Source of the DNA: a virus
Length of the DNA stretch: 56,543 bases
IMG/VR virus record: IMGVR_UViG_3300031999_000024
Coordinates: 1 to 56,543 of that record
Strand: one strand, 5' to 3'
Below, piece after piece: positions 11,059 to 16,387 of the stretch. The notes beneath the pieces were generated by a model that saw only the letters and a list, made by a program, of their open reading frames with translations, did no database searches and was not told the DNA's origin. The translations under genes and the position numbers were made by a program. The stretch's first letter is position 1. The number at the start of each line of letters is the position of its first letter.

Positions 11059-11382
11059 TTAAATTATAGGTGTCCTCCAACTGAATGAAATAGGTGAAAT
11101 CACAACTCCTGGTATGTATTCCCCTAAATTATAGGTATCCTCCAACCATACCTTTAATAACTCACTGATTTCCGAATGTTTCATAATAAAAACGGATTCC
11201 AAAAATAACCAAATTCTATCGTAATTAGAATAAATATGTCTACTTTTTTGACTATTATGGTAATGAACAAATAAAGGTAACCTATCTTTATCAACATAAA
11301 ATGTTCTATCATCGTTAACCACCGAAGTAAGATTACCAAACTCCTTGTTCAACCACTTTAATATGATTTTTTGTTTATTCAT
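11059..11382 (-). CDS. Tandem paralogue A, IWLFLE family
   Basis: 107 aa. Starts MNKQKIILKWLNKEFGNL and carries the block NYDRIWLFLESVF, then LLKVWLEDTYNLGEY. It is closely similar over its whole length, including the end (FSWRTPII) and the intergenic bases, to the neighbouring gene at 11389-11709: a recent tandem duplication. A more distant relative is at 33789-34229 (YEEIWSFLEEF, IYNLRG). Function unknown. Confidence 0.75.
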   Translation of the reverse strand: MNKQKIILKWLNKEFGNLTSVVNDDRTFYVDKDRLPLFVHYHNSQKSRHIYSNYDRIWLFLESVFIMKHSEISELLKVWLEDTYNLGEYIPGVVISPISFSWRTPII

Positions 11383-11388
11383 AATATT

Positions 11389-11709
11389 TTAAATTATAGG
11401 TATCCTCCAACTAAAACAAATTGAAATGAACGTAATTTGTGGTGTGACTCCCCTTAAATTATAGGTATCCTCCAACCATACCTTTAACAACTCACGGATT
11501 TCTAAATACTCCATACTAAAAACAGATTCCAAAAATAACCAAATTCTATCGTAATTAATGTAAACCCACCCATTTTTTTCATCCTGGTGATAATAAAACA
11601 AAGGTAAATTGTTTTCGTCAACATAATATGTTCTATCGCCACTAACTACCGGGGTTAGTCCACCAAACTCCTTATTCAACCATTTAACTATAATTTTTTG
11701 TTTATTCAT
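11389..11709 (-). CDS. Tandem paralogue B, IWLFLE family
   Basis: 106 aa from ATG at 11709; the upstream in-frame TTG is unlikely because paralogue A begins at the matching Met. Shares MNKQKII-KWLNKEFG, YDRIWLFLESVF, LLKVWLEDTYNLRG and a FSWRIPII end with paralogue A. A strong minus-strand terminator (11717-11742) stands directly before it, and no promoter was recognised, so its expression depends on readthrough or on an unrecognised start site. Confidence 0.75.
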   Translation of the reverse strand: MNKQKIIVKWLNKEFGGLTPVVSGDRTYYVDENNLPLFYYHQDEKNGWVYINYDRIWLFLESVFSMEYLEIRELLKVWLEDTYNLRGVTPQITFISICFSWRIPII

Positions 11710-11716
11710 AATCACC

Positions 11717-11742
11717 AAAAAAAGGAGGGTGATTAACCCTCC
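11717..11742 (-). terminator. Intrinsic terminator after DUF932 gene
   Basis: Minus-strand hairpin GGAGGGT/ACCCTCC with a 5-nt loop, followed by seven T, starting 8 nt after the DUF932 stop. Strong Rho-independent form. Confidence 0.88.
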
Positions 11743-11749
11743 GTTATTT

Positions 11750-12505
11750 TTAAATCATTTCTTCAGCCAGTTCCCAAAGTTTTGTGTTGATGTTGTTTAC
11801 CGTCAAGATACTTTTAAGATTTCGTAATTTTGACTTTCTTCCTGTTTTAGTTCGGTAGTCAAACCCCCCTCTTACAAACTTCTCCTGAACCACATTGAAT
11901 GTTGTCCACAAGTCATTCTTATTGTCTTCCACACGATTTGGTGTAAGGATGTCAACAAGTTGGTTATCACTTGGGATTGAACCCTCTGCCCATCGGATTT
12001 TTGATGCTTTCTGAACATACTGAATTTGTTCGTCAATTGTAAGTTCTCTCTCCATCATTCGTCCAACAGATCCTTGGATTATTGGTAATTTTTTTGAGAA
12101 CCCGTCCATCAATCGTTTAACATCATCAAGTTCAAAACCACTGTGTCTAACATTGAATTTTTCCGCCACTGATGTCGGAACCACAAGTCCATTGGAACAC
12201 ACTAGTCTGTGTAATCCCGCACTTACCGAAAAGGTTGACATACCATTGTGTGAGTTTCTTACAATTGCCTCAACCAATGTGTCTCCAACCGCAGGAAGTT
12301 GTCCGTGACGGAATTTAAGTTGGTGAGTTGCGTGAATACCTCTACCTGTTTGACTAACATCAGAAATTTCCCATCCTTCACGATCAAAATATTCAATTAC
12401 TTGATCAGTTGGGACAAAAACATATTTGTCTGATAATTTGTTAGATGCCGAGGTAGCGAACACTGAAGGTGCTACGGATTTGATAAGTTCTGGTGTATAA
12501 ATCAT
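11750..12505 (-). CDS. DUF932 (phage/plasmid-like TIGR03299) protein
   Basis: 251 aa. Family signs are GLHRLVCSNGLVVPTSV in the middle and KNDLWTTFNVVQEKFVRGG near the end, both typical of DUF932 proteins carried by phages and plasmids. Biochemical role of the family is not established; several members are abundant early proteins. It is a single-gene unit: a consensus host-type promoter (12529-12559) in front and a strong terminator behind, so early expression by host polymerase is likely. Base composition is less AT-rich than that of its neighbours. Confidence 0.85.
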   Translation of the reverse strand: MIYTPELIKSVAPSVFATSASNKLSDKYVFVPTDQVIEYFDREGWEISDVSQTGRGIHATHQLKFRHGQLPAVGDTLVEAIVRNSHNGMSTFSVSAGLHRLVCSNGLVVPTSVAEKFNVRHSGFELDDVKRLMDGFSKKLPIIQGSVGRMMERELTIDEQIQYVQKASKIRWAEGSIPSDNQLVDILTPNRVEDNKNDLWTTFNVVQEKFVRGGFDYRTKTGRKSKLRNLKSILTVNNINTKLWELAEEMI

Positions 12506-12528: not shown

Positions 12529-12559
12529 CAAAGATAGTAATTAATCTTTAATATCCAAA
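12529..12559 (-). promoter_or_regulatory. Bacteroidota-type promoter (TTTG-N19-TATCTTTG)
   Basis: Minus strand TATCTTTG (12529-12536) with TTTG (12556-12559) exactly 19 nt upstream matches the Bacteroidota vegetative consensus. Transcription would begin about 20 nt before the DUF932 ATG. Same sequence and spacing as the promoter at 15692-15722. Confidence 0.75.
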
Positions 12560-12883: not shown

Positions 12884-14728
12884 TTAATCTACCGAAATAA
12901 CATAAACACCTTCAGATTCCTCCACCATTTTTTCTTTCAATCTTTCAGGTATTACCATACTTGGATTTGATCCTGACAATGTGATAAGCTCCAAAAGTTC
13001 TAAATCCGATAAAGATGTTGGTAAAGATTGTAAGTTTTTATTTCGTTGTAATGTTAAGAACGATAAACTTTCCATTTGCCCCATTTCTTCAGGTAATGTT
13101 TTTACACAGTTTTCAAGAACCAATGCCATCATATTTTTGAATTTACCAATACTTGGTGGTATATCCAAATCAAGGCTATCTTGTGAGGTATTATTAATAG
13201 TTAAAAATTGAATATTATCGGATAAGTTTTCAAACAATTCTTCAAATCCAAATAACGCAATGTATTTGGATGACGCATCATTTGGATATGTTATCTTAAC
13301 AAGTGTATCTCCTTCCGCAGACAATTGTCCAGCGTATTTAACCTTCAATTCTTCTTTAAGGTTTCTCATTGTCGGCATATTGATTAATGCAATATCAGCA
13401 GTTGTTAGATTAGACAAAGTTTTAGTTCTCAAAGAATCAATCTTTCTTGCCAAATAATATTTAACAACATCAGGTTCAGAATTTGTAATCATATCACCTG
13501 TCAAGTCCATACCCAAAGAAATGTATTTCTTTTTAAGTTCTGCCGGTAAGTTAATATAAACTCTCGGTTTGTTAGTTAAGTTTGGACTAGCAATTTCCAA
13601 CCAAAATTCAGCGTCTTCAACTGAACCAAGTTCTTGAACCGCATCCTCATTCACATTGATATTTTTATATCTTCTTAATAATTCCTTTTCTCTGTCAGTA
13701 AGTGGGTCAGCAGTGAATAAATTTTCTTTATCCGCTAGTTTCGGAACTTTTGAAGATATTACATCCCAACTTTCAGTTTTATGTCCCGAGAATCCTCCCG
13801 CCATATTTTTACCATCGGCAATTCTTTTTCTTCCATATTCATCAACCAAGATAACCACCGCAAAGTTTAAATCGTCAAATGATTTGTCTTTATCAATAAC
13901 ATAATAAAGTGTTAGGTTGTTTTCCAAACGATAGTTGTAGTATAAGTTACCACCACCAACTCTTGATGTACACCAAGGTCTTCCGTGTGCTAATCTAATA
14001 CATTGTTCTTTACCATTTGGTTTGAAGATGTATAAATTATCTTCATCGTAAATGTTTTCTATTCCTTGAAAGTCGTCACCTTTCTTTTGTGGTACATCGT
14101 CACCATCAGGTAAGTGATCCAATGATGCTTCTAAATCATCAAATGACATTAACATAATTGGTGGAGTATTAGGTTCCAATCTATCGTATAAATCAACATA
14201 TCTTTCAATATATGAAAGGATTTGTTCATTTGTTAAATCATTTCTTTCTCTTTTAAATTTTTCAAAAGCCGCTTTAGTAATAAGTCCCCCAAATTTATTT
14301 TGGATTAACTCAACCAATCTTAAATAAGGATATTTCATAATATCTCTATTTGGTTCAGGTAAATAATCTCTTATCTCCAAAAATTTCTTAATCATTGATT
14401 TAACTTGTCTTTGATCAGAACCTTTACCAGGACCTTTCATATATGTCTTATATATATCACCTTCTTCTTTCTTAACCCTTTTAGATTGGATTAAAGATTT
14501 AAGTTGATCATATGTATATTTTGTAATGTCTCTTTTGTCGGATGCCAATCCGTTTTTATATTTGTCAAAATCGTTAATATAACTTTTAATGTCGTCCTCC
14601 GAATCTTCAGTTCCTTCTTGGAATTTAACAACAAGTTGATTCATTAATTTATTTGATATTTCCGTTAACCTAAATCTTGGATCAACATTTTCCACTATTA
14701 CTGATGATAAAATTTTTACTAATTTCAT
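12884..14728 (-). CDS. Tagged 614-aa protein with C-terminal leucine-rich repeats
   Basis: N-terminus MKLVKILSSVIVENV aligns position by position with MKLLSIFKNLISESV of the gene at 15896, with IxE at residues 11-13 in both: a probable head-targeting peptide cut by a T4 gp21-like protease. The middle (about 220-330) contains QCIRLAHGRPWCTSR, YYVIDKDKSF, NFAVVILVDEYG and RIADGKN, a Trp-Cys-containing domain seen in other phage and plasmid proteins of unknown role. The C-terminus (about 500-600) is leucine-rich: MMALVLENCVKTLPEEMGQM, then SLSFLTLQRNKNLQSLPTSL. Best guess is an internal head protein; the LRR part may bind a host protein. Confidence 0.82.
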   Translation of the reverse strand: MKLVKILSSVIVENVDPRFRLTEISNKLMNQLVVKFQEGTEDSEDDIKSYINDFDKYKNGLASDKRDITKYTYDQLKSLIQSKRVKKEEGDIYKTYMKGPGKGSDQRQVKSMIKKFLEIRDYLPEPNRDIMKYPYLRLVELIQNKFGGLITKAAFEKFKRERNDLTNEQILSYIERYVDLYDRLEPNTPPIMLMSFDDLEASLDHLPDGDDVPQKKGDDFQGIENIYDEDNLYIFKPNGKEQCIRLAHGRPWCTSRVGGGNLYYNYRLENNLTLYYVIDKDKSFDDLNFAVVILVDEYGRKRIADGKNMAGGFSGHKTESWDVISSKVPKLADKENLFTADPLTDREKELLRRYKNINVNEDAVQELGSVEDAEFWLEIASPNLTNKPRVYINLPAELKKKYISLGMDLTGDMITNSEPDVVKYYLARKIDSLRTKTLSNLTTADIALINMPTMRNLKEELKVKYAGQLSAEGDTLVKITYPNDASSKYIALFGFEELFENLSDNIQFLTINNTSQDSLDLDIPPSIGKFKNMMALVLENCVKTLPEEMGQMESLSFLTLQRNKNLQSLPTSLSDLELLELITLSGSNPSMVIPERLKEKMVEESEGVYVISVD

Positions 14729-15691: not shown

Positions 15692-15722
15692 TTTGGCAGA
15701 ACCAAAAACTTCACTATCTTTG
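15692..15722 (+). promoter_or_regulatory. Bacteroidota-type promoter of putative small RNA
   Basis: TTTG (15692-15695) and TATCTTTG (15715-15722) are exactly 19 nt apart, the Bacteroidota vegetative consensus. The predicted start, about 15727, coincides with the first base of a hairpin. No ORF begins within the next 140 nt. Confidence 0.78.
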
Positions 15723-15726
15723 TATC

Positions 15727-15880
15727 GTTGATGTGATTGAGTAATCAATGTTATCAACAGGTTGTCAGAATCCTATTAAACAAACTGACCACTAATGACT
15801 GGGTGAATCGGTCTGGGTTGATTACCCCAATTTTAGGAATGAAATAATTGTAACCCCGTCCCAAAAAGATGGGGTTTTCT
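15727..15880 (+). ncRNA. Putative phage small RNA with own promoter and terminator
   Basis: A consensus host-type promoter ends at 15722 and an intrinsic terminator closes at 15880, with no usable reading frame between. The predicted RNA, about 150 nt, starts with a nested hairpin: outer arms GTTGAT (15727-15732) and ATCAAC (15753-15758), inner arms GATT and AATC (15735-15746). Further small stems are GACTG/CGGTC (15797-15813) and TGGGT/ACCCCA (15814-15829). It matches no RNA family I know; tRNA, tmRNA and hammerhead cores are absent. It may act on host or phage mRNAs or bind a protein. The alternative is an attenuated leader of the gene at 15896, but that gene has its own TATTTATA motif. Confidence 0.62.
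15852..15880 (+). terminator. Intrinsic terminator of putative small RNA
   Basis: AACCCCGTC (15852-15860) pairs with GATGGGGTT (15868-15876), one G-U pair, loop CCAAAAA, followed by TTCTTAT. The in-frame ATG at 15869 lies inside the stem and was rejected as a start. Confidence 0.8.
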
Positions 15881-15895: not shown

Positions 15896-16387
15896 ATGAA
15901 ATTATTATCAATATTTAAAAATTTAATATCCGAATCCGTATTCGTTAAAAAATTTCATTATGGTAGTCAACCTATTGAAATAGTTAAAACTTACGAATCG
16001 TTAAGATCGTCATCAAATACAGGTGAATTTGTTAGGGTGTTTCCAGATGAAATATTGGATTCAATGTCGGATATTTATGATGTTATTATTGATCAAGCAC
16101 ACGATGTCCTTATTTCTTGTAAAAATAGATGTTCACTTCTTATTCGTGATTACAGGTTTGGATTAGATTTTGACTACCAATTATTTATCAATTATAAAGA
16201 AAAGGACAATATTCTCAAATTCACAATTAACACATCTATTAGACATCCAAAAAAATTATATAACAACCATCAAAAAACTCGTGAAATTCTAATCACCAAA
16301 AATGATAGTATTATTATTAGAGAAGATTTTGATTTAAATCACTTTACTAAAATTGTTAAAGGTGATATCATTATCTATATTATTTAA
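15896..16387 (+). CDS. Tagged protein, 163 aa
   Basis: Start chosen at ATG 15896; the ATG at 15869 is in a terminator stem. N-terminus MKLLSIFKNLISESV has the same spacing of hydrophobic residues and IxE (11-13) as the 614-aa protein at 12884-14728. The remaining 150 residues are an alpha/beta region (PDEILDSMSDIYDVIIDQ, CSLLIRDYRFGLDFDY) with no known fold signature. Likely packaged in the head if the tag works as proposed. Confidence 0.72.
   Translation: MKLLSIFKNLISESVFVKKFHYGSQPIEIVKTYESLRSSSNTGEFVRVFPDEILDSMSDIYDVIIDQAHDVLISCKNRCSLLIRDYRFGLDFDYQLFINYKEKDNILKFTINTSIRHPKKLYNNHQKTREILITKNDSIIIREDFDLNHFTKIVKGDIIIYII

Follow-up and report, generated by a model that had tools for sequence, protein, structure and literature searches.

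Two described systems come closest to the phage RNA analyzed here. Phage phiTE blocks the host toxin ToxN with an expanded pseudo-ToxI RNA (PMC5449768). In a Clostridioides difficile prophage the ncRNA RCd22, about 130 nt long and with its own promoter and terminator, lies directly before a protein gene, and RCd22-AbiF is active in cis and in trans through RNA-protein binding (PMC12373285). By analogy, the former would be the nearest precedent for the mode of action of the phage RNA, and the latter for its layout with the neighboring gene, c1.

The RNA gene lies in a 56,543 nt stretch of viral DNA (IMG/VR record IMGVR_UViG_3300031999_000024), the whole of which is referred to as the window. 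Like pseudo-ToxI, it would provide a phage-expressed, pseudoknotted RNA with a variable number of units, and the tandem units of its family resemble the expansion of pseudo-ToxI units against ToxN (PMC5449768). A short H-type pseudoknot is shared with ToxI, as is a terminator between the RNA and a gene of about 160 aa, found in the window and in relatives. However, the phage RNA has no sequence or Rfam match to ToxI or pseudo-ToxI, possesses a 5' hairpin of its own, and usually consists of one unit. Type III systems (ToxIN, CptIN, TenpIN) contain tandem repeats of 34-50 nt; here there is one unit in the window, and the two units of some relatives are 57 or 92 nt long and add hairpins. No ToxN-fold toxin was found beside the RNA, c1 not being ToxN-like, and a search of the window was also silent, as it was for control genomes. 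The evidence does not place the RNA among the type III toxin-antitoxin systems, although in fold it resembles their pseudoknotted antitoxins.

With RCd22/AbiF the phage RNA shares the arrangement of an ncRNA with promoter and terminator before a protein gene (PMC12373285), but it differs in hosts and fold, has no Rfam match, and also occurs without the protein; c1 does not match the Abi_2 (AbiD/F) family in Pfam or PADLOC. Riboswitch-like pseudoknotted aptamers likewise place a compact pseudoknot and hairpins with invariant loops ahead of a terminator and a gene, whereas the phage RNA has no conserved domain-terminator switch, precedes unrelated genes and exists in tandem or gene-less copies. 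GOLLD and ROOL (Rfam) are also structured ncRNAs, some of them phage-carried, but the phage RNA is far smaller and matches no Rfam model.

Promoter, transcript and fold

The features of the RNA gene are collected in Table 1. The Bacteroidota housekeeping promoter consists of TAnnTTTG with an upstream TTTG (PMC7366714). The exact form TTTG-N19-TATCTTTG occurs twice in the window, against 0.02 copies expected from 100 dinucleotide shuffles, while the looser form TTTG-N18..21-TANNTTTG occurs six times, against 3.4 by chance. Transcription is predicted to start at about 15724-15728. The transcript (15726-15880) contains no ORF of at least 60 aa on the plus strand and has a folding energy of -42.4 kcal/mol (z = -2.7), better than nearly all shuffles, which taken alone is modest evidence for an RNA gene. 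The terminator was listed first of 7 candidates in the 11-20 kb region, where 3.4 were expected. A perfect TTTG-N19 promoter, a 9-bp intrinsic terminator, the absence of a reading frame and a hairpin at the first base of the transcript had all been described in a first-pass annotation of this DNA, and each was recovered here.

Table 1. Positions of the RNA gene, its structural parts and gene c1 in the window
Feature	Position	Strand	Description
Bacteroidota-type promoter	15692-15722	+	TTTGGCAGAACCAAAAACTTCACTATCTTTG; -33 TTTG 15692-15695, 19-nt spacer, -7 TATCTTTG 15715-15722
5' hairpin	15727-15758	+	GTTGATGTGATTGAGTAATCAATGTTATCAAC; from folding; begins at about the first transcript base
Whole conserved domain	15759-15850	+	match to covariance model R1, 93.4 bits
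H-type pseudoknot PK1	15759-15790	+	S1 AGG 15759-15761/CCT 15772-15774; S2 GTCAG 15764-15768/CTGAC 15785-15789; A-rich third loop
Hairpin P3	15797-15813	+	GACTG/CGGTC, loop GGTGAAT (GGTG conserved); double compensatory changes in 6 of 6 model pairs
3' domain	15815-15849	+	P4 GATT 15820-15823/AATT 15846-15849 around P5 15830-15840; double changes in 8 of 8 model pairs of P4 and P5
Candidate crossing helix of 3' domain	15815-15818/15824-15827	+	GGGT/ACCC; double change in 1 of 4 pairs only
Intrinsic terminator	15852-15876	+	AACCCCGTCCCAAAAAGATGGGGTT, then T-rich tail; 9 pairs
c1	15896-16387	+	begins MKLLSIFKNLISES; about 160 aa, no known family; often accompanies the RNA, not required for it

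The second exact promoter of the window (12529-12559, minus strand) is directly upstream of a DUF932 gene (11750-12505). At 11059-11718 two adjacent genes encode near-identical proteins (MNKQKII-KWLNKEFG...), a pair that we read as a recent tandem duplication.

From 5' to 3', the RNA consists of the 5' hairpin, an H-type pseudoknot whose third loop is A-rich, a GGUG-loop hairpin, a 3' domain that itself bears a hairpin, and the terminator. The annotation had given two further small stems behind the first hairpin; this misses the core, since the central part is the pseudoknot, which is visible in relatives and which simple folding cannot show. The compensatory changes that it proposed to look for in homologous regions were found, well above both shuffled and slid controls. 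They were counted in the model alignment of 27 copies over four helices, S1 of PK1 being left out of the model. In this alignment 90.9% of helix cells are paired, double changes occur in 14 of the 19 helix pairs (9.7 in shuffles) and in 69 cells (24 in shuffles), and the covariation score reaches 0.390, compared with 0.177 for shuffled and at most 0.108 for slid alignments; these counts lean towards the structure because the alignment was fitted to it. The evidence is located in P3, P4 and P5. S2 hardly varies and therefore says little by itself. S1, with just 3 pairs in the window against 4-6 in relatives, is paired in 87.5% of cells, an undercount since the rows of the L020 group are shifted by one base, and it has AU to GC double changes in that group.

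PK1 scored better than 150 of 150 shuffles in L002, L020, L096, L238 and a sister type, type B; in the window, whose best-scoring pairing is not the S1 of the family, it exceeded 148 of 150, and in L128 it was not significant. The strongest indication that the shape of the knot matters comes from L238 and type B, which retain it on unrelated sequences. The crossing helix of the 3' domain (GGGT/ACCY) is present in most copies and rarely varies, and in single-sequence tests it was not significant, being marginal in L096. It would make the 3' domain a second pseudoknot, which is possible rather than proven because of the small number of its pairs with a double change. Nearly all conserved sequence is folded or in short loops, with no exposed conserved seed of at least 7 nt seen; thus the RNA does not appear to offer a long single-stranded seed for base pairing.

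Relatives, copy number and distribution

A protein search with the neighboring DNA methyltransferase gathered 80 viral loci, and in many of them the same promoter and a similar RNA occupy the space between the methyltransferase gene and the adjacent one. Further relatives were found by pattern scans of IMG/VR and with the covariance model R1. Besides the window, the RNA family comprises about 35 IMG/VR contigs, some of 150-304 kb, scoring 62-107 bits with R1 (window, 93); the R1 E-values are rough, and sequences used to build the model match it by construction. Two divergent relatives, L128 (25 bits, E 3e-4) and L238 (26 bits, E 7.5e-6), have the promoter directly upstream and their parts in the same order. 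Type B, in 13 contigs, matches the family in its kind of promoter and 5' leader but has a different core. Nearly all relatives are preceded by the promoter seen in the window, with a spacer of variable length. A hairpin lies directly 3' of this promoter in every promoter-driven relative examined, while the sequence of the hairpin changes; terminator sequences vary as well. In all, promoter, 5' hairpin, terminator and covarying helices are common to about 50 viral contigs. In L238 more G+C-rich hairpins and a second terminator (1600-1750) follow the terminator of the divergent RNA, possibly another RNA.

Copy number varies within the family. The window RNA is a single unit, whereas an extra PK1+P3 unit (57 nt, in tandem) is present in five relatives (L016, L017, L073, L090 and L092) and two complete 92-nt domains are present in L107 and L117. 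In L105, L108, L133 and L137 the domain directly follows a stop codon and is without promoter and 5' hairpin, so that it can also form part of an mRNA 3' end.

The remark that no known RNA family fits by eye agrees with a search of all 4227 Rfam families, in which neither the window nor 16 homologous loci gave a match at the gathering threshold; a permissive search returned chance-level matches only. A tRNA/tmRNA search found none. In BLAST against described phages and plasmids, no match went beyond fragments the size of a promoter or a low-complexity stretch, and the best (LR756502) shares a promoter but not the RNA. In the same 642-kb phage, two successive Bacteroidota-type promoters precede a tRNA-like stretch (L198 1515-1800, by eye). 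Scanning 84,980 prokaryote genomes for the motif returned seven matches, none from named Bacteroidota and none scoring with R1, and thus no homologue. The feature is almost certainly a real and new RNA family. As far as was searched, for prokaryote genomes by motif scan, this family is confined to phages, and its carriers are large phages, with Flavobacterium-like bacteria as the probable hosts. Two resemblances were considered and dropped: mimicry of the 16S rRNA 3' end (GAUNACCUC), as P4 covaries freely, and mimicry of a CRISPR repeat (GTTG...CAAC in some 5' hairpins), as other relatives have unrelated hairpins.

The neighboring gene c1

The RNA is most commonly found between the divergent methyltransferase gene and c1, which is followed by c2, encoding a small membrane protein; many related phages have neither the RNA nor c1 at this site. 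A protein search recovered 16 full-length c1 genes, and each of them has the RNA 50-700 nt upstream. In L096, L099 and L116 the RNA and c1 occur together in a different gene neighborhood, with a c1 remnant marking the old site, and L128 and type B have the pair in divergent form. The RNA is intact after recent deletion of c1 in L115 and L145, and it is kept in contigs of 154-224 kb, possibly incomplete, without any c1. It therefore works without c1 and is not simply a c1 leader, and the earlier proposal of a stand-alone RNA gene is sustained by an RNA that outlasts the loss of its neighbor. Divergent, type-B-like c1 genes without the RNA exist in L011, L012 and L057. C-terminal c1 remnants lie directly before c2 in L213 and L217 (around 2501) and in L068, where the RNA-c1 pair is elsewhere or missing, which suggests that c1 has been lost repeatedly from a single site. 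In L115, L139 and L146 a homing-endonuclease-like gene and a small ribbon-helix-helix-like gene (by eye) are situated between the methyltransferase gene and the RNA.

The c1 protein matched no ToxN or Abi model in Pfam and no PADLOC model, and its predicted fold (pLDDT 80) had no PDB match at E<=0.001. A ToxN-like identity was rejected on these Pfam and PDB results, and a structural match with a phage protein predicted as a 'site-specific RNA endonuclease' was too weak to be of use (E 0.08, TM 0.46/0.52). A TATTTAT-like sequence before c1 may be a promoter of its own. The c1 protein (MKLLSIFKNLISE) and that encoded at 12884-14728 (MKLVKILSSVIVE) both start with MK-L--(I/L)--(I/L)-E, and these starts resemble T4-type capsid-targeting sequences, which the prohead protease cleaves. 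Many genes adjoining the RNA in relatives begin in a similar way, suggesting that such genes encode packaged proteins.

Possible modes of action

We give about an even chance to an early, trans-acting, protein-binding RNA, most likely a decoy or an RNA antitoxin. The host sigma factor would drive a stand-alone RNA of about 150 nt, probably early in infection, a timing suggested by the host-type promoter alone. The 5' hairpin and the terminator hairpin would cap its ends, and the RNA would fold into the H-type pseudoknot and two hairpin domains, act in trans as a stable RNA and occupy an RNA-binding protein. The candidate partner is either a host protein of anti-phage defence or RNA metabolism or the c1 product of the phage. 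Action in trans on a protein is favored because of the compact fold, the protected ends, the host-type promoter, the duplication of units and the absence of any conserved seed that is exposed; that the partner would be a protein and not a base-paired target is suggested by the fold. Relatives retain the promoter and the 5' hairpin despite sequence drift in both, PK1 persists on altered sequences in type B, L238 and, weakly, L128, and the RNA has its own promoter and terminator, a conserved structure and no conserved ORF.

The strong link between the RNA and c1 allows a function in cis or as a pair. It is rather unlikely, in our estimate, that the two form a module like a type III toxin-antitoxin system or AbiF/RCd22, in which the RNA would bind and silence c1, the intervening terminator would keep the RNA in excess, and c1 would be packaged and injected by virtue of its capsid-targeting-like N-terminus. 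The order of promoter, pseudoknot RNA of one or two units, terminator and a gene of about 160 aa agrees with this, and c1 starts about 170 nt past the RNA start, near the 168 nt of RCd22-abiF (PMC12373285). The consistent presence of the RNA upstream of full-length c1 and the recurrence of the pair, elsewhere and in divergent form, point the same way; the RNA is often found without c1. On the other hand, c1 matches no ToxN, Abi or PADLOC model and its predicted fold no PDB structure at the threshold given above, phages without c1 keep the RNA well, type-B-like c1 genes exist without it, and c1 may have its own promoter. Somewhat less probable is a new class of phage RNA-protein module, in which an early pseudoknot RNA neutralizes or guides c1 as a virion-packaged effector, the RNA alone giving immunity against c1 or serving as an anti-defence decoy for a host RNA-regulated toxin. 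A cis-acting leader, in which the domain, as a riboswitch-type or attenuator-type sensor, would govern read-through past the terminator into the following gene, we consider improbable: in most loci promoter, folded domain, terminator and gene follow one another on one strand, and many terminators have an AACCC arm to which the invariant GGGTT could pair, but the downstream genes differ (c1, c2, c7, c14, c32), the RNA stays intact when c1 is deleted, and terminator sequences are not conserved. By eye, no conserved pairing exclusive with the terminator was found, as the arms vary, and in L128 and type B, whose terminators start with the G-rich arm, the GGGTT-AACCC pairing is impossible.

A base-pairing sRNA acting on host or phage mRNAs, with which size, promoter and terminator would agree, is very unlikely given that the conserved bases are in helices and short loops. 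Least probable of all is a passive stability element, in which hairpins and pseudoknot would guard RNA ends with no partner protein. xrRNA-like and 3' UTR elements protect RNA ends, and the four copies placed like a 3' UTR behind stop codons recall them, but a promoter making only a protective element would be without evident use, and the invariant loop bases suggest specific contacts.

The comparison thus yields a phage-only RNA family with covariation support, absent from Rfam and from described phages and plasmids and unseen in the scanned prokaryote genomes. If the RNA is a decoy or an antitoxin, it would represent RNA-based counter-defence in Bacteroidota phages and would be a natural bait for its target protein, for which the linked gene c1 provides a direct candidate partner.
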